Positions 2,854-9,754 of a stretch of 10,000 nucleotides of DNA are shown piece after piece. The notes beneath the pieces were generated by a model. It ran no database searches and was not told the DNA's origin. It saw nothing but the letters and a program-made list of their open reading frames with translations. Made by a program: the position numbers and the translations under genes. Each line of letters opens with the position of its first letter. Position 1 is the stretch's first letter. The stretch comes from Magnetospirillum sp. (GTDB lineage: Bacteria; Pseudomonadota; Alphaproteobacteria; Rhodospirillales; Magnetospirillaceae), in the NCBI GenBank assembly GCA_020217035.1, contig JAIWOG010000272.1, forward strand, positions 1-10,000. Direction: 5' to 3'.

Positions 2854-5649
2854 ATGTCCGCGCCACCCGCCCCCTCCCGCATCCTGCTGCCCCACGCCCC
2901 CGCCTTGGTGGTGGCGTTGCGCGGCGCCGTGCTGCTGGACACCGACGGCGAGTTCCATCACCTGGACCTGCCCGAGGCCGCCCGCCGCGCCAAGGCCGAA
3001 TGCCCGCTGGTCTGCCATGCGCCAGCCACCGCCGCCCGCCTGGGGTTGGACGACTTCGCCAGCCTGGATTTGCTGGAACTGTTCGCCTTCGTCCGCCCCG
3101 CCCGCTTCTGCCTGCCCACCGTGCGCGGCTTGGCCGAGGCTTTGGGGCTGGTCCGCCCCGCCGACCTGGAAGACCAGGCGGAAGCCCTGATCCGTTGCAC
3201 CCGGGCGCTGTTGCAGGAACTGGCGGAACGCACCCAAGCTGACACCGCCGCCCGCGCTTCCGACACCAGATCCGCGGCCTGGGCCATGGCGCGGGCCGGC
3301 TGGGGCTGGGGCAACGCCGTGCTGGCCGCCTTGGGAGTGACCGGCGACAACGCCCGCGGTTCGGGGCTGCGGGTCTGGGAGCGCCTGCCCGAATGGTCGG
3401 AACACTCGCCCGAACCGCCCAGCGGCAGCCTTCCCGTGGACCCCGCCGAGGCCCGCCAACGCCTGGACCGCCTGCTGGGCAGCGATTCAGAACAACGCCC
3501 GGCCCAGGCCGATTACGCGTCGGCCGCCGCCGCCGCCTTCCAGCCGCGCCAGATGGAGGGCGAACCGCATCTGGTGCTGGCCGAGGCCGGCACCGGCACC
3601 GGCAAGACCTTGGGCTACATCGCCCCGGCATCCGTCTGGGCGGAAAAGAACGGGGCGCCGGTCTGGCTGTCCACCTATACCCGCAACCTTCAGCGCCAGT
3701 TGGACACCGAACTGGACCGGCTTTACCCCGATCCCGGCACCAAATCGCGCAAGGTGGTGGTGCGCAAGGGGCGCGAGAATTACCTGTGCCTGCTGAACCT
3801 GGAAGAACAGGTGTCGCGCAACCGGGTGCAAGAGGCGGTGGCGTCCGGCCTGATGGCCCGGTGGGCGCTGGCGACGCGCGACGGCGACATGGTGGGCGGC
3901 GACTTCCCCGCCTGGCTGGGCGACCTGCTGGGCCGCGCCCGCACCCTGGGACTGGCCGACCGCCGGGGCGAGTGCATCTTTTCCGCCTGCCCGCATTATT
4001 CCAAATGCTTCATCGAACGCGCGGTACGCAAGGCACGCCGCGCCGACATCGTCATCGCCAACCACGCTTTGGTGATGGTGCAAGCCGCCATGGGCGGGCT
4101 GGATGACGGCGCCACCCCCACCCGCTATGTGTTCGACGAGGGCCATCACGTCTTCGACGCCGCCGATGGCGCCTTTTCCGCCCATCTGTCGGGACTGGAA
4201 GGTATCGAGGTGCGGCGCTGGCTGCTGGGGGCCGAGGAACAGGGCACAAGATCCCGCGCCCGCGGCCTGAAGCGCCGGGCCGAGGACCTGTTGGGACTGG
4301 CGGCCGAGGCACCGGCCGCCCTGGATGCCGCCTTGGCCGGCGCCCACGCCCTGCCGGCCACCGGCTGGCAGAACCGCTTGGCCGACGGTGCGCCCTTGAA
4401 CGCCGCCGAGCGCTTCCTGGCCCTGGTGCGCCAACAGGTTTATGCCCGCACCCAAGGCGCCGATTCGCCCTATAGCCTGGAAACCGAATGCCAGCCGCCG
4501 GTGGACGGCCTGCTGGAAGCCGCCGGCGAACTGGCCCACGCCCTGGGCAAGCTGGGCGCCCCCTTGCAGACCCTGGCCCGGGTGCTGGCGCAAGCGCTCG
4601 ATGACGAATCAGCCGAGTTGGAAACCGCCACGCGGTCGCGCATCGAGGGATTGGTGCGCTCCATCGAACGCCGGGCGCTTTTGCCCATCGCCGGCTGGAA
4701 AAGCATGCTGGAGGAGTTGATCGAAAGCGCCCCCAAACCCTTACGCCCGGAAAGCGGGGCTGGCGGGGCGGCCGCTTTCGGGGCGGACAAATACGTCGAT
4801 TGGTTTTCCGTCGAACGCATCGAGGGCCGGGATTTCGACGTCGGCATGCACCGCCACTGGATCGACCCCACCCTGCCCTTCGCCAAAACCGTGGCCGAGC
4901 CGGCCCATGGTTTGCTGATCACCTCGGCCACCCTGCGCGACGGCGAGTCCGACATGGGCTGGTCCGCCGCCGAACGGCGCAGCGGCGCCGTGCATTTGCC
5001 CACCCCACCCATCCGCGCCGCCATGGCCTCGCCCTTCGACTATCCGGCGCAAACCAGGGTTCTGGTGGTGTCCGACGTGCGCAAGGACGATCTGAATCAG
5101 GTGGCGGCGGCGTACCGCGAATTGTTCCTGGCGGCCGCCGGCGGCGGGCTGGGCCTGTTCACCGCCATCTCGCGGCTGAAGGCGGTGCACAAGCGCATCG
5201 CCGAGGCCATGGACCACGCCAACCTGCCGCTTTACGCCCAGCACGTGGACAATCTGGACACCGGCACCCTGGTGGACATCTTCCGCGCCGAGGAGGAATC
5301 CTGCCTGCTGGGTACCGACGCGGTCAGGGACGGCGTCGACGTGCCGGGCCGGTCGTTGCGGCTGATCGTCTTCGACCGGGTGCCGTGGCCGCGCCCCGAC
5401 ATCCTGCACAAGCACCGCCGCGCCGCTTTCGGCGGCAAGTCCTATGACGACATGCTGGCGCGTCTGCGACTGAAACAAGCCTTCGGCCGCTTGGTGCGCC
5501 GGGCCGGCGACCACGGTGTGTTCGTACTGCTGGACCCGATGATGCCGTCGCGCCTGCATTCCGCCTTTCCCCGTGGGGTGGCGGTGCAAAAGGTCGGCTT
5601 GGCCGAGGCGGTGGCGATGACGCGGGACTTCCTGAAGGACGTTCCCTAA
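2854..5649 (+). CDS. DinG/XPD-family ATP-dependent DNA helicase with iron-sulfur cluster
   Basis: Superfamily 2 helicase, 931 residues. The family unwinds DNA 5' to 3' using ATP and serves in repair or in removing R-loops and stalled replication intermediates. Visible motifs: Walker A AEAGTGTGKT (243-252), four cysteines placed as in the XPD/DinG 4Fe-4S domain (C312, C374, C379, C385), ANHALVM after the cluster, the Walker B variant DEGH (428-431), TSATL motif III (690-694), and motif VI QAFGRLVRR (Q875, G878, R879, R882). The first 230 residues look like a decayed DEDD exonuclease fold: LLDTDGEF near the start, then LVCHAPATAARL and LDLLELFAF, which sit where LVAHNAxFD and DTLELAR occur in DinG-type exonucleases; the catalytic acids are mostly missing. 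It is longer than E. coli DinG (about 716 aa), mainly because of this N-terminus. It stands alone, and I see no link to the cas genes beyond adjacency. Confidence 0.92.
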   Translation: MSAPPAPSRILLPHAPALVVALRGAVLLDTDGEFHHLDLPEAARRAKAECPLVCHAPATAARLGLDDFASLDLLELFAFVRPARFCLPTVRGLAEALGLVRPADLEDQAEALIRCTRALLQELAERTQADTAARASDTRSAAWAMARAGWGWGNAVLAALGVTGDNARGSGLRVWERLPEWSEHSPEPPSGSLPVDPAEARQRLDRLLGSDSEQRPAQADYASAAAAAFQPRQMEGEPHLVLAEAGTGTGKTLGYIAPASVWAEKNGAPVWLSTYTRNLQRQLDTELDRLYPDPGTKSRKVVVRKGRENYLCLLNLEEQVSRNRVQEAVASGLMARWALATRDGDMVGGDFPAWLGDLLGRARTLGLADRRGECIFSACPHYSKCFIERAVRKARRADIVIANHALVMVQAAMGGLDDGATPTRYVFDEGHHVFDAADGAFSAHLSGLEGIEVRRWLLGAEEQGTRSRARGLKRRAEDLLGLAAEAPAALDAALAGAHALPATGWQNRLADGAPLNAAERFLALVRQQVYARTQGADSPYSLETECQPPVDGLLEAAGELAHALGKLGAPLQTLARVLAQALDDESAELETATRSRIEGLVRSIERRALLPIAGWKSMLEELIESAPKPLRPESGAGGAAAFGADKYVDWFSVERIEGRDFDVGMHRHWIDPTLPFAKTVAEPAHGLLITSATLRDGESDMGWSAAERRSGAVHLPTPPIRAAMASPFDYPAQTRVLVVSDVRKDDLNQVAAAYRELFLAAAGGGLGLFTAISRLKAVHKRIAEAMDHANLPLYAQHVDNLDTGTLVDIFRAEEESCLLGTDAVRDGVDVPGRSLRLIVFDRVPWPRPDILHKHRRAAFGGKSYDDMLARLRLKQAFGRLVRRAGDHGVFVLLDPMMPSRLHSAFPRGVAVQKVGLAEAVAMTRDFLKDVP

Positions 5650-5687
5650 AAAGGAATCCCCCCCACCCGGCAAAGCCGGATGGAGGG
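5648..5687 (-). terminator. Rho-independent terminator for a minus-strand transcript
   Basis: The arms 5687-5675 and 5671-5659 form a 13-bp stem around a UUU loop in minus-strand RNA. Two of the pairs are G-U wobbles, at 5662/5684 and 5666/5680. On the plus strand these same positions are C-A mismatches, leaving only a 5-bp CCGGC/GCCGG core without a following T-run. On the minus strand the stem is followed by GATTCC and then five T (5652-5648), which overlaps the helicase stop codon. The element is therefore directional for minus-strand RNA. Confidence 0.65.
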
Positions 5688-5757
5688 TCAAAGGCACGTC
5701 ATTTCGTGCATCCTGCGATTGGAAAACCAACTTACCGTGGCTTCCCTACCGACTCCC
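5648..5757 (-). ncRNA. Candidate tracrRNA, divergent from cas9
   Basis: A minus-strand terminator at 5687-5648 lies between two plus-strand genes and needs a minus-strand transcript to act on. No minus-strand gene is plausible here. Type II Cas9 requires a tracrRNA, and these are often encoded next to cas9. Upstream of the terminator, in transcript order, are a weak TTGG-TTTT-CCAA hairpin (5730-5719), a GCACG/CGTGC hairpin with a six-base loop (5709-5694), and then the terminator stem, in keeping with the string of hairpins that follows the anti-repeat in known tracrRNAs. The anti-repeat would fall in about 5757-5725. The 5' end is set by a weak promoter guess and may lie further upstream. 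The repeat sequence is outside the window, so pairing cannot be tested here. tracrRNA genes elsewhere in the locus remain possible. Confidence 0.5.
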
Positions 5758-5812
5758 GCAACCAACTTTTCATTTTCCGACGCGTGAGTCAAGATCGACG
5801 CATTCAACTTTT
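5757..5812. repeat. Two near-identical 14-mers 42 bp apart before cas9
   Basis: CGCAACCAACTTTT (5757-5770) and CGCATTCAACTTTT (5799-5812) agree at 12 of 14 positions and are offset by 42 bp, four helical turns. A shorter relative, AACCAACTT, occurs at 5725-5733 and within the first copy at 5760-5768. They could be binding sites for a regulator or the remains of a local duplication. No protein is known to me for this motif. Confidence 0.45.
5764..5792 (-). promoter_or_regulatory. Possible promoter for the minus-strand RNA
   Basis: On the minus strand TTGACT (5792-5787) matches the -35 consensus at five of six positions. At 17-bp spacing the -10 position reads AAAGTT (5769-5764), a poor match. 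It would give a transcript starting near 5757 and about 110 nt long, a normal tracrRNA size. The good -35 and the product length support it; the -10 does not. Confidence 0.28.
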
Positions 5813-5819
5813 GAATGCG
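5799..5819. promoter_or_regulatory. Perfect 9-bp inverted repeat touching the cas9 ribosome binding site
   Basis: CGCATTCAA (5799-5807) and TTGAATGCG (5811-5819) are exact reverse complements around a CTT loop. The right arm includes the first G of the cas9 Shine-Dalgarno GGGGAG. In DNA it could be an operator. In cas9 mRNA it would be a hairpin just before, and partly including, the ribosome binding site. It is too weak in following T bases to be a terminator. Confidence 0.55.
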
Positions 5820-5824
5820 GGGAG
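5819..5824 (+). promoter_or_regulatory. Ribosome binding site of cas9
   Basis: GGGGAG, four bases before the ATG at 5829. This spacing is a little short but acceptable. It selects the 1021-residue start over the longer in-frame opening at 5706. No convincing sigma-70 promoter for cas9 is visible in 5650-5820. Confidence 0.65.
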
Positions 5825-5828
5825 TTCC

Positions 5829-8800
5829 ATGGGCGGCAATCTGTATTTGGGCATCGACCTGGGCATCGGGTCGTGCGGCTGGGCGTTGTGCACCGATACC
5901 GAAATCATCGGCATGGGGACGCGGACCTTCGACGTCCCCGAGACCGACAAGGAACGCACGCCCACCAACCAGTTGCGCCGTCAGGCCCGCGGCATGCGCC
6001 GGATGATCGACCGCCGCCGCCAGCGCATGAACGCCGTCCGCGCCCTGCTGCACCGCCATGGCTTGTTGGACAATGACGGCAAGACCGCCCTGGCCAGCTG
6101 CGCCGACGCACCGTGGCGGGCCCGCGCCGAGGGGCTGGAACGAAAGCTTACGCCCCGCGAACTGGCCTTGGCCTTGGGGCATATGGCCAAGCATCGCGGC
6201 TTCAAGTCCAATTCCAAACGCGACCGGGGCAACGACCCGGAATCCGGCAAGGTGTTGTCCGCCGTCGCCAAGACCCAGGAAAGGCTGGCGCAGTATCGCA
6301 GCGTCGGAGAGTTGTTTTGGAAACACCCCGATTACCAGGACCGCAAGCGTAACCGCGACGGCGATTATCAGCACACGGTCCCCCGTGACGCGCTGATCGC
6401 CGAAACCCGCCTGTTGCTGCGGACGCAACGCCACCTGGGCAACGCGCTGGCCGGTCAGGACTTGGAAGACGCCTTCGTCGATCTGGCCTTCACCCAGCGC
6501 CCGTTGCAGGATTCCTGGGCCATGCTGGGCGACTGTCCCTTCGTGCCGGGCCAGAAACGCGCCGCCAAGCATGCGCCGTCCTTCGAACGCTTCCGCCTGT
6601 TGTCGCGGCTGAACACCCTGCGCGTCGATGGCGAGGCGCTGAACGCCGAGCAAATCCACGCCGCCATGGCCGATTTCGGCCATCAGCAGAAACTGAGCTT
6701 CAAGACCCTGCGCAGCAAGCTGGGTCTGGGCGCCGGCCAACGCTTCGACACCGTCGCCGAGGCCGAGGAAGGCCGCGATGTGGTCGCCCGTTCCGGGGCG
6801 GCGATGACCGGCGCCAACGCCCTTTACAAGGTGCTGGGCGAGGCCGGCTGGCAGTCGCTGCTCAAGACGCCCGCGCTTTTGGACGACATCGCCGCCGTGC
6901 TGACCTTTTGCGAATCCGACGACAGCATTCGCCGTCACCTGGAAGACTTGGGCCTGGACCCGCTGATCCTGGCCGCGCTGATGGATGGCGTCACCAATGG
7001 TTCTTTTGCCAAGTTCAAGGGTGCCGGCCACATCTCGGCCCAGGCGGCACGGGCCATCAACGAACATCTGGCCCAGGCCATGACATATGACCAAGCCTGC
7101 GAAAAACTGGGCTGGAACCATGCCCAGCGCATGGAAGGCGACATCGACGACATCCGCAACCCCATCGCCAAGAAAGCGCTTCTGGAAGGCTGGAAACAGA
7201 TCAAGGCGGTGGTCGAGGCCCATCGCCGCCCCTATGGCCTGCCCACCCACATCCATGTGGAAATGGCCCGCGACATGGGGAAAAGCCTGGAGGAACGCCA
7301 GGAAATCGAACGCGGCATCGACAAGCGTACCAAGCAGCGCGACAAGCTGCGGGCCGAGTTCGAGGAATTGTTCGCCCGCCCGCCGCGCGGCGACGACATG
7401 CTTCGCTTCGAATTGTGGAAGGAACAACGAAACGAAAGCGTCTATTCCGGCAAGCCCATTCTGGCCGAGATGCTGGTGTCGGATCAAAACCTGGTGGAAA
7501 TCGACCACATCCTGCCGTGGAGCCGTTCAGGCGACGATTCGCCGGTCAACAAAACCCTGTGCTTCACCGACGAGAACCGCGAGAAAAAGGGCCGCACGCC
7601 GTTTCAATGGATGCAGGAAGGCGGCCCGGATTGGGATTCCTTCGTCGCCCGCGTCGAAACCAACCCCAATTTCAAGGGCCGCAAGAAGCGCAATTACCTG
7701 CTGCACGATCTGGACAGCCGCAAGGATTTCGTCAGCCGCAACCTGAACGACACCCGTTACGCCTGCCGGTTGCTGTTGAACAAGCTGAAGGCCGAGTTCA
7801 AGGGCATCGACCCGGTCAACATCCGCGCCCGCCCCGGCGCCCTGACCGACCGCCTGCGCCGGGCCTGGGACTTGCAGAACCTGAAAAAGCACGACGACGG
7901 CCAACGCAAGGCCGATGACCGCCACCACGCGGTGGACGCGCTGATCGTGGCACTCACCAGCGAATCCCGTCTGCAACAATTGACCACCTTGTTCCAGCAG
8001 GCGGAAAACCTGGGCCTGTCCACCAATTGGCGCCGCATCCGCCACGTGGCCGAAGTGTTCGCCGAGCACGGCCTGCCGCCCAAGGAACTGGCCGCCCTGC
8101 AACCGCCATGGCCGGAATTCCGCGCCGACACCGAAGCGGCCTTTGACCGCATCACCGTGTCCCGCGCCGAACGCCGCCGGGCACGGGGCAAAGCGCATAA
8201 GGACACCATTCGGCAGGTCGATGAAGTTGATGGCGAGGCCGTCGTCTACGAACGCAAAGCCATCGAGGCATTAGCCGAAAAAGACCTGGAGCGGGTCAAG
8301 GACGCCGAACGCAATCAAAGCGTCGTTGAATCTTTACGCGGCTGGATCAGGGCGGGGAAACCCAAAGGTAGCCTTCCACTTGACCACCAGAACCAACCCA
8401 TCCGCAAGGTTCGCCTGTCCACCGATAAGAAGGCCGACATTCTGGTCCGTGGAGGTGCGGCAAACCGAGGAGAGATGGCCCGTATCGATGTTTTCCGTAA
8501 AGCCAACAAAAGAGGCAAATGGGAATTCTATCTTGTGCCGGTCTATCCACATGAAGTGGCGACCCTTAGCTCACCTCCGATGAGAGCCGTATCACAAACC
8601 GACGAATGGCCAGAAATGAATGAGGGCTATGAATTCATCTGGAGCCTTTACCCGCTGTCATGGGTGCGAGCCGTCAAACCTAATGGTGAAATCACCGAGG
8701 GGTATTTCCGTGGGCTGGATATATCAAACGGCAAAATCAAGATCACGCCTCACCATACCAAAAGCGAGTCGGAGAAAACCCAATTAGGAACGAGGACCTT

Positions 8801-8894
8801 GTCCGAGTTCCGCAAATTCGCCATCGACCGCCTGGGCAACTTGACCGAAATCCAACGGGAGAAACGCACATGGCGTGGCGCGGAGTGCACTTAA
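5829..8894 (+). CDS. cas9: Cas9 RNA-guided DNA endonuclease, type II-C
   Basis: Cuts both strands of DNA that matches the crRNA next to a PAM, guided by crRNA:tracrRNA. 1021 residues, within the usual compact II-C range. RuvC-I has D10 in YLGIDLGIGS. An Arg-rich bridge helix occupies about 44-75. The REC lobe spans about 80-460. RuvC-II has E478 in HIHVEMARD. HNH has D559-H560 in VEIDHILPW, then N574 and N583 (DENREKKG). RuvC-III has H700 and D703 in RHHAVDALIVAL. The WED and PAM-interacting region is about 780-1021. All catalytic residues are present, so the nuclease should be active. The start at 5829 has a GGGGAG site and puts the RuvC-I Asp at position 10. From about residue 790 to 997 the DNA drops to about 53 percent GC and uses TTA, AGA and ATA codons not seen earlier in the gene, suggesting that the PAM-interacting domain was acquired by recombination. 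The last 25 nt overlap cas1. Confidence 0.97.
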   Translation: MGGNLYLGIDLGIGSCGWALCTDTEIIGMGTRTFDVPETDKERTPTNQLRRQARGMRRMIDRRRQRMNAVRALLHRHGLLDNDGKTALASCADAPWRARAEGLERKLTPRELALALGHMAKHRGFKSNSKRDRGNDPESGKVLSAVAKTQERLAQYRSVGELFWKHPDYQDRKRNRDGDYQHTVPRDALIAETRLLLRTQRHLGNALAGQDLEDAFVDLAFTQRPLQDSWAMLGDCPFVPGQKRAAKHAPSFERFRLLSRLNTLRVDGEALNAEQIHAAMADFGHQQKLSFKTLRSKLGLGAGQRFDTVAEAEEGRDVVARSGAAMTGANALYKVLGEAGWQSLLKTPALLDDIAAVLTFCESDDSIRRHLEDLGLDPLILAALMDGVTNGSFAKFKGAGHISAQAARAINEHLAQAMTYDQACEKLGWNHAQRMEGDIDDIRNPIAKKALLEGWKQIKAVVEAHRRPYGLPTHIHVEMARDMGKSLEERQEIERGIDKRTKQRDKLRAEFEELFARPPRGDDMLRFELWKEQRNESVYSGKPILAEMLVSDQNLVEIDHILPWSRSGDDSPVNKTLCFTDENREKKGRTPFQWMQEGGPDWDSFVARVETNPNFKGRKKRNYLLHDLDSRKDFVSRNLNDTRYACRLLLNKLKAEFKGIDPVNIRARPGALTDRLRRAWDLQNLKKHDDGQRKADDRHHAVDALIVALTSESRLQQLTTLFQQAENLGLSTNWRRIRHVAEVFAEHGLPPKELAALQPPWPEFRADTEAAFDRITVSRAERRRARGKAHKDTIRQVDEVDGEAVVYERKAIEALAEKDLERVKDAERNQSVVESLRGWIRAGKPKGSLPLDHQNQPIRKVRLSTDKKADILVRGGAANRGEMARIDVFRKANKRGKWEFYLVPVYPHEVATLSSPPMRAVSQTDEWPEMNEGYEFIWSLYPLSWVRAVKPNGEITEGYFRGLDISNGKIKITPHHTKSESEKTQLGTRTLSEFRKFAIDRLGNLTEIQREKRTWRGAECT
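8857..8861 (+). promoter_or_regulatory. Ribosome binding site of cas1
   Basis: GGGAG inside the 3' end of cas9, eight bases before the cas1 ATG at 8870. It supports a start that overlaps cas9 by 25 nt, and so translation of cas1 from the cas9 message. Confidence 0.65.
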
Positions 8895-9754
8895 GCCAAA
8901 AAGCCCGCCTGTCTTTGGCCGACGGCCAGATGGTGGTGGACCAAGACGACGGCAGCGTGCGTCTGGCGCTGGAGGATTTGGCCTGGCTGGTGCTGGACAC
9001 CCCCCAAGTCAGCCTGTCCGCCAACCTGTTGTCGGCCTGCATGGAGGCCGGCATGGTGGTGGTGACCACCGATGCCAGCCACCTGCCCAACGGCATCCTG
9101 CTGCCTTTCCACGGCCATCACCGGCAGGCCGGCATGGCGGAAAAGCAGGTGGCGATGACCGTGCCGCTGAAAAAGCGGCTGTGGCAGGGGATCGTCAAGG
9201 CCAAGATCGCCAACCAAGCCGCCGTCCTGGACAGGTTGGGCCGCGACGGCGGCAAGGTGGTGGCGGAAATGGCCCGCCATGTGGGGTCGGGCGATCCCGA
9301 CAACGTGGAAGCCCGCGCCGCCCGCCAATATTGGCAATGCCTGTTCAGCGATTTCCGCCGCGACGACGACGACGACCGCCGCAACAAGTTGTTGAATTAC
9401 GGTTACGCGGTGGTCCGCGCCATCATCGCCCGCGCCCTGGCGGCCAGCGGCTTGCTGCCGGCCTTCGGCCTGCATCACGCCAGCATCGGCAACGCCTTCA
9501 ACCTGGCCGACGACCTGATCGAACCGTTCCGCCCCTTCGTCGACCGGCTGGCCCACGCCCAGGGCGGCGGCAAGGACGGCGACTTAAGTTTGGCCGAACG
9601 CCGCGCCATGGTCGCCGTCTTGCTGGCCGAGGTTCGCCTGGACGGCGACACCCTGACGCTGTCGGCCGCCGCCGAACAGATGGCGGCGTCTTTGGTTCGC
9701 GCCATCGTCGCCGCCGATCCCTGCGAACTGATCCTGCCGGCCGTGCCGCCATGA
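8870..9754 (+). CDS. cas1: Cas1 spacer integrase, type II
   Basis: Metal-dependent integrase that, with Cas2, inserts new spacers at the leader end of the CRISPR array. 294 residues, normal for type II Cas1. The N-terminal beta domain begins MAWRGVHLSQKARLSLADGQ, which resembles the MAGWR opening of S. pyogenes Cas1 and supports this start. The C-terminal helical domain carries the active site: E147 in DNVEARAARQYW, H203 in GLHHASIGNAFNLADDL, and E218 in LIEPFRP. The spacing of 15 residues between the His and the second Glu matches the streptococcal protein. A run of five Asp (165-169, five GAC codons) precedes the conserved LLNYGYAVVRA helix; this loop is variable in the family. It overlaps cas9 by 25 nt and cas2 by 4 nt, so the three genes form one operon. 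GC content is back to that of the neighbours. Confidence 0.96.
   Translation: MAWRGVHLSQKARLSLADGQMVVDQDDGSVRLALEDLAWLVLDTPQVSLSANLLSACMEAGMVVVTTDASHLPNGILLPFHGHHRQAGMAEKQVAMTVPLKKRLWQGIVKAKIANQAAVLDRLGRDGGKVVAEMARHVGSGDPDNVEARAARQYWQCLFSDFRRDDDDDRRNKLLNYGYAVVRAIIARALAASGLLPAFGLHHASIGNAFNLADDLIEPFRPFVDRLAHAQGGGKDGDLSLAERRAMVAVLLAEVRLDGDTLTLSAAAEQMAASLVRAIVAADPCELILPAVPP

Follow-up and report, generated by a model that had tools for sequence, protein, structure and literature searches.

Does the gap between two plus-strand genes in a Magnetospirillum sp. genome, a helicase gene and cas9, encode an RNA on the opposite strand, and if so, which one? The stretch analyzed here, called the window, covers 10,000 nucleotides of contig JAIWOG010000272.1 (contig C46 of a draft assembly of 334 contigs and 3.54 Mb), for which an original prediction had proposed a trans-activating CRISPR RNA (tracrRNA; CRISPR, clustered regularly interspaced short palindromic repeats) read away from cas9. 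In type II systems, a dual RNA of repeat and anti-repeat loads Cas9. Our data argue strongly, with a probability of about 0.96, that minus-strand positions 5757-5648 encode the tracrRNA of the CRISPR-Cas9 locus starting at cas9 (5829). The expected tracrRNA beside a cas9 of probable type II-C is supported by the anti-repeat, the conserved tail, the promoter box and the position, with its expression predicted; the sequence features, their conservation and covariation, the predicted pairing and the position are established here.

The evidence was drawn largely from related loci, collected through their Cas9. At E <= 1e-3, 21 genomes out of a set of 99 held a relative of this protein; at E <= 1e-60, the order had 13 such genomes (of 317) and the class 12 (of 385), each figure counting the genome of the window. 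Every other locus passing E <= 1e-60, 23 in all, was used together with its flanks; 13 weaker genomes among the 99 and second Cas9 loci in G014 and G089 were left out. A search for related loci among genome contigs gave no relative. A CRISPR array was present in 20 of the 23 loci, in 19 of them 4.2-4.5 kb beyond the point where the cas9 match starts, a distance that accommodates cas1 and cas2, and in G445 at 3.6 kb, although the match there begins at residue 304. No array was found in the stretch covered in G026, G099 and G547. The Cas9 matches of G402 (L074) and G026 (L044) are broken into pieces, through either decay or assembly errors, and their tracrRNA still matches the covariance model described below, which both loci helped to build.

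Since the contig ends in cas2 and the assembly gave no array, complementarity was checked with the relatives' repeats only. The 36-nt repeat of most relatives close to the window starts GCCGTGGTTTCCCTACCGACTCCC on the minus strand, and the window's own repeat, if like theirs, would be expected to start GCCGTGG(T/C)TTCCCTACCGACTCCC. Each of the 20 loci with arrays was searched on both strands with its own repeat, the array and 120 bases on each side being masked. For 19 of them, the top match was on the plus strand and preceded the cas9 match by 65-202 nt (518 nt in G009); the window's element lies 72 nt before cas9. The window itself was searched with two relatives' repeats, and the G009 repeat identified 5735-5757 (+) with a score of 42, the next match scoring 23, so that no clear anti-repeat is present elsewhere in the window. 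Among the loci without an array, the same repeat search ranked the element first in G026 and, in G099, second to a copy at the contig end that is probably the first array repeat; in G547 the element was not distinct (22-24), and its call there rests on the covariance model.

The predicted duplexes are stable. Window RNA 5757-5735 (-) and the G009 repeat form 24 contiguous pairs, a 1-nt bulge and 4 more pairs at -55.8 kcal/mol, which bears out the predicted complementarity of at least 20 bases with relatives' repeats as a proxy for the window's own. In all 14 loci tested, of the 20 with arrays, the duplex with the own repeat (-46.0 to -63.7 kcal/mol) was better than all 200 shuffles, and duplexes with the wrong-strand repeat were weaker (-13.2 to -25.2 kcal/mol). 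Co-folding of the window RNA with 24 nt of a relatives' repeat gave a 24-bp repeat/anti-repeat duplex, followed by the nexus hairpin, an extra hairpin and the terminator.

The strand of the RNA is indicated by this terminator. A scan of 5500-6000 (501 bases) returned a single site, on the minus strand, with a stem at 5687-5659 of 13 pairs and a 3-nt loop. Its stem folds at -25.5 kcal/mol in minus-strand RNA with two U-G pairs, versus -17.6 kcal/mol on the plus strand, where those two become C-A, and the fold of 5640-5800 reaches z -3.53 on the minus strand versus z -1.92 on the plus strand. The hairpin is thus sound in minus-strand RNA only, as originally proposed, and the element does sit between two plus-strand genes, the second, 5-bp hairpin announced ahead of the terminator being present too. 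That the hairpin merely terminates the upstream helicase transcript might be suggested by its place directly after the helicase stop codon (5647-5649), which the minus-strand T-run (5652-5648) overlaps; we give this explanation next to no credence, given the two C-A mismatches on the plus strand and the lack of a T-run after the stem on that strand. As shuffles of the same 501 bases contain 0.7 terminator-like sites on average, the hairpin by itself is within chance and the evidence must come from relatives; the above-chance status of the element comes from its conservation there.

In the RNA, the anti-repeat is followed by the nexus hairpin and by a short AGGA/UCCU helix around the terminator, with the extra hairpin in four loci. 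Covariance model R1 was built from 7 relatives, excluding the window, and searched over 26 sources. A first MAFFT alignment of 7 loci (A1) was dropped for its misaligned tail and replaced by A2, an alignment of 7 loci lacking the extra hairpin. R1 matched the window at 5757-5649 (minus) with 54.9 bits (E 1.5e-12), its sole match at E <= 0.001 in the whole assembly, and ranked on top the 18 loci with this repeat type, 11 of which (the window and 10 others) had been held out. The other R1 matches (233 matches in total at E <= 1) reached at most 30.2 bits and seem to consist largely of array repeats and of hits on the reverse strand of these elements. Over the 317 genomes of the order, with strict filters, R1 gave 12 matches at E <= 1e-6, of which 11 adjoin Cas9 genes found at E <= 1e-60; two of the 13 Cas9 genomes of the order (G122 and G159) have other repeats and no R1 match. 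The twelfth match, in G198 (L085), has a Cas9 piece (residues 163-239) close by, where the contig ends.

Covariation supports the same structure. All four modelled nexus pairs changed on both sides with 100% of cells paired, and the AGGA/UCCU helix (helix 2) had 95.6% of cells paired and both-side changes in two of four pairs. In the fitted alignment as a whole, which has 18 rows with 17 distinct sequences, pairing held in 97.7% of 262 cells versus 50.3-66.7% with slid partners, a contrast that is somewhat overstated because the alignment was fitted to the model; both-side changes occurred in 14 of 18 pairs, and none of 500 shuffles reached any of five measures. Model R2, made from the tail alone, scored 28.3 bits on the window (E 1.7e-4 over 333,875 bases). 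The 18 tails were the top 18 of its 25 matches; the remaining 7 fell on the reverse strand of these elements, and R2 matched nothing in the other 8 sources. The terminator stem is therefore kept in a covariance search over related loci (R1, R2 and covarying helices 3 and 4), in agreement with the original prediction.

These results bear on a second explanation, namely that the element is an orphan, decaying CRISPR repeat upstream of cas9 next to an unrelated terminator, without a functional tracrRNA. It would account for the copying of the repeat and for a hairpin that alone is within chance. However, 18 loci share a conserved, covarying tail past the anti-repeat, with the tail-only model R2 speaking against an orphan repeat, and the position of TTGAC is nearly fixed in 16 of the 18; we consider this explanation very improbable.

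The TTGAC motif lies 52-57 nt 5' of CCACGG in those 16 loci (chance per locus 0.024). In the window, the predicted -35 box at 5792-5787 is present as TTGACT, which would place the transcription start near 5757-5759, and the forecast product of about 110 nt agrees with its position.

The orientation of the arrays points to the same strand. We take TAnnnT to be a promoter motif inside type II-C repeats; all 20 repeats, as trimmed here, end in TAnnnT on the minus strand, and 13 of them in TGnTAnnnT. Such ends would fit promoters within repeats, and II-C repeats are described as holding internal promoters in the parts of PMC12080349 and PMC8616872 available to us. In the former source, as far as it could be consulted, new spacers enter II-C arrays at the last repeat, which would make the repeat farthest from cas9 the old end (PMC12080349). 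Of the 20 arrays, 17 were examined, three of which reach the end of a contig; four of the 17 contain an altered repeat, and in all four it is the repeat farthest from cas9 that is altered. The TAnnnT ends and the altered far repeats fit CRISPR RNA (crRNA) and tracrRNA read from the same strand. A functional plus-strand RNA, in which the cas9 leader would pair with a plus-strand crRNA, could presumably draw on the symmetry of repeat/anti-repeat pairing between the strands; nevertheless, it has a vanishingly small probability in our judgment, as the terminator with its T-run is sound on the minus strand only, and both TTGAC (16 of 18) and the TAnnnT repeat ends (20 of 20) are minus-strand features.

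Besides the fitted alignment, several observations weigh against assigning a tracrRNA to 5757-5648. Relatives' repeats stand in for the own one, the contig ending inside cas2 and no array having been found in the assembly. No CRISPR array was found in the window, nor in the first 10,000 bases of contigs C45 and C47 (of 16,593 and 15,079), guessed neighbors by number; the first 16 nt of the repeat, the only part searched, matched the assembly at <= 1 mismatch once, in the anti-repeat itself. G445 is without a good anti-repeat upstream of cas9. When 11 distinct repeats were compared as partners, the own one came out best in no more than 7 of 14 loci, ranking second or third in 6 and seventh in G210. 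TTGAC is missing in 2 of 18 loci (G089 and G547), and a promoter scan of 5500-6000 gave no sigma-70 match, probably because the -10 hexamer at 17-nt spacing is poor. Finally, G122, G159, G344, G506 and G354, with other repeat families, have the element and are unmatched by R1.

From the sequence, we infer transcription of the tracrRNA, its binding to Cas9 and its function, in the following manner. RNA polymerase would start near 5757 from the TTGAC promoter and end at 5648. The first 23 nt of the RNA would anneal to the 5' two thirds of every CRISPR repeat; the nexus hairpin, together with the closed terminator hairpin, would then form a handle bound by Cas9, and the dual RNA would direct DNA cleavage. 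The array, which in relatives lies just past the place of cas1 and cas2, would likewise be read on the minus strand, each repeat probably supplying a promoter.

The element is an ordinary part of such a CRISPR-Cas9 system. Campylobacter jejuni and Neisseria meningitidis II-C systems have a repeat and a tracrRNA tail that presumably differ from the window's. They likewise use a dual RNA and promoters inside repeats, according to the consulted parts of the sources (PMC12080349, PMC8616872). EH CRISPR-Cas9, as described in the portion of PMC10281378 available, is of type II-C, clade IX, with alphaproteobacterial nearest relatives. Its locus and the window share the cas9-cas1-cas2 order, the array coming next in EH and in the window's relatives, and in EH, too, cas9 is preceded by a tracrRNA gene of about 100 bp, for which a promoter, an anti-repeat and a terminator were predicted (PMC10281378). 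The EH array was inferred to be transcribed in the tracrRNA direction, as here, and the EH contig ends at the array; the EH tracrRNA was tested in E. coli (PMC10281378), whereas the window's is predicted from sequence. The likeness is one of layout. This layout is thus already published for EH Cas9, and the window RNA adds one more of the same type. Our literature search, outside which most subscription journals lie, found nothing on a tracrRNA in Magnetospirillum or a type II-C anti-repeat in Rhodospirillum.

The Cas9 here is a compact alphaproteobacterial protein of 1021 aa, and the RNA is likely its guide-RNA partner. Rfam 15 gave no family at gathering score in the window, and on 5600-5850 only mir-2057 (E 1.5), far under that score, which fits the original remark that the sequence does not obviously resemble familiar tracrRNAs. 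The structure and covariance model, where Rfam matched nothing in the window, also find 17 relatives, 7 of which built the model.

The tracr-L RNA of Streptococcus pyogenes, a natural single-guide RNA, is described for some II-A systems and not for other subtypes in the part of PMC8616872 consulted (citing Workman 2021). No such copy was found 5' of the window's anti-repeat (score 12, reached by half of 300 shuffles). A tracr-L-like layout, with a repeat-like copy 5' of the tracrRNA and a short match before cas9, was seen in G009 only. This copy (L038 10432-10452, +) precedes the anti-repeat by 120 nt in the same orientation, is complementary to it over 17 nt and has a score reached by none of 300 shuffles. 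The 10 nt that border the copy on its 5' side have only a single further match in the 17-kb locus, in the interval from the tracrRNA to cas9. It is a candidate natural single-guide RNA that would act on cas9 in a II-C-like system.

A further proposal, tentative and in our view rather unlikely, concerns the free RNA. Folding models suggest a two-state tracrRNA, whose anti-repeat would be hidden in the nexus until a true crRNA repeat, by its much stronger pairing, displaces the nexus and frees its hairpin for Cas9. The nexus, UUGGUUUUCC in the window and GUGGUUUUCC in some relatives, by eye resembles the repeat 5' end GUGGUUUCCC, and the predicted free window RNA with the anti-repeat on the nexus reaches -55.8 versus -49.3 kcal/mol with the nexus hairpin forced. 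The probability that the 12-nt arm pairs with the next 32 nt was 0.74-0.99 in 13 of 18 loci and 0.00-0.41 in 5, and in those 13 the pairing was reached by 0-8 of 100 tail shuffles. Under nexus-preserving nulls in 12 loci, which left out near-duplicates (G009, G033, G402, G477) and loci with another nexus kind (G089, G547), it was reached by 0-10 of 300 in nine, 17 in G397, 56 in G099 and 259 in G223. The arm opening cost was weakly above shuffles (mean z 1.22 over 18 loci), at <= 0.015 in four (G682, G402, G574, G477), 0.105 in the window and 0.34-0.82 in five loci with other repeat families, and it lay under the null mean in G223, G099 and G397. These counts are not independent, the sequences being related, and because the shuffle statistics are mixed, the two-state reading is only a proposal; the GG...CC core of the nexus may instead be kept for Cas9 alone. 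In G089 and G547 (L043 5402-5492 and L073 5086-5192), the anti-repeat itself holds a CCGUGG...CCACGG hairpin, and the predicted hiding of its last arm thus differs from that in the window. If true, the two-state reading would act as a gate on the assembly of the dual RNA and curb pairing with other RNAs in the cell. As such a gate on crRNA selection, it would bear on noncanonical crRNAs, which arise when tracrRNA pairs with cellular RNAs (PMC8224270, in the part consulted). We found no literature on an anti-repeat held intramolecularly, or sequestered, by a nexus or hairpin of the tracrRNA in a search outside which most subscription papers lie.

Table 1. Features of the predicted tracrRNA gene and neighboring genes in the window
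Feature	Positions	Strand	Evidence or remark
tracrRNA gene (predicted), about 110 nt	5648-5757	-	Covariance model built without the window
-35 box TTGACT	5787-5792	-	TTGAC conserved in relatives
-10 box position, AAAGTT, weak	5764-5769	-	17-nt spacing; 2 of 6 TATAAT letters by eye
Anti-repeat GGGAGTCGGTAGGGAAGCCACGG	5735-5757	-	Predicted pairing with repeats of 14 relatives, -40.5 to -55.8 kcal/mol
Nexus hairpin GUUGG-UUUU-CCAAU	5718-5731	-	Helix covaries; forms on co-folding with crRNA repeat
AGGA, 5' side of long-range helix closing the 3' domain	5711-5714	-	Helix 2
Extra hairpin	5694-5709	-	Window, G009, G025, G033; absent from the other 14 of 18 loci (by eye)
Terminator hairpin, 13 bp	5659-5687	-	Fold and terminator scan; covarying stem (helices 3 and 4)
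UCCU, 3' side of long-range helix	5652-5655	-	Covariation and folding
T-run	5648-5652	-	Sequence; overlaps helicase stop codon
DinG/YoaA-like helicase	2854-5649	+	NF053712, PF13307; convergent with tracrRNA gene
cas9, 1021 aa	5829-8894	+	TIGR01865, 626.4 bits
cas1, type II	8870-9754	+	TIGR03639, 292.5 bits
cas2, cut by contig end	9751-10000	+	TIGR01573

The locus in the window is probably of type II-C, a subtype that has cas9, cas1 and cas2 but neither csn2 nor cas4, with the order cas9-cas1-cas2 up to the contig end within cas2. The closest named Cas9 in a protein search came from a Magnetospirillum gryphiswaldense metagenome-assembled genome (81% identity), with another at 87%. In G009 the array begins about 1.25 kb past the cas9 match, leaving little room beyond cas1 and cas2. 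For the helicase, the top NCBIfam match (NF053712) reached 230 bits, under its cut-off of 680, and PF13307 was matched as well. A tRNA search of the window gave none. At 5799-5819, just 5' of the presumed cas9 ribosome site, two perfectly matched 9-bp arms, CGCATTCAA and TTGAATGCG, flank a 3-nt loop (CTT); this inverted repeat is a possible operator or leader hairpin. At the other end of the window, positions 1-90 hold a 15-nt tandem repeat that encodes repeats rich in Ala and Pro; these close an open frame on the minus strand whose product we take, from its motifs, to resemble a sensor kinase.

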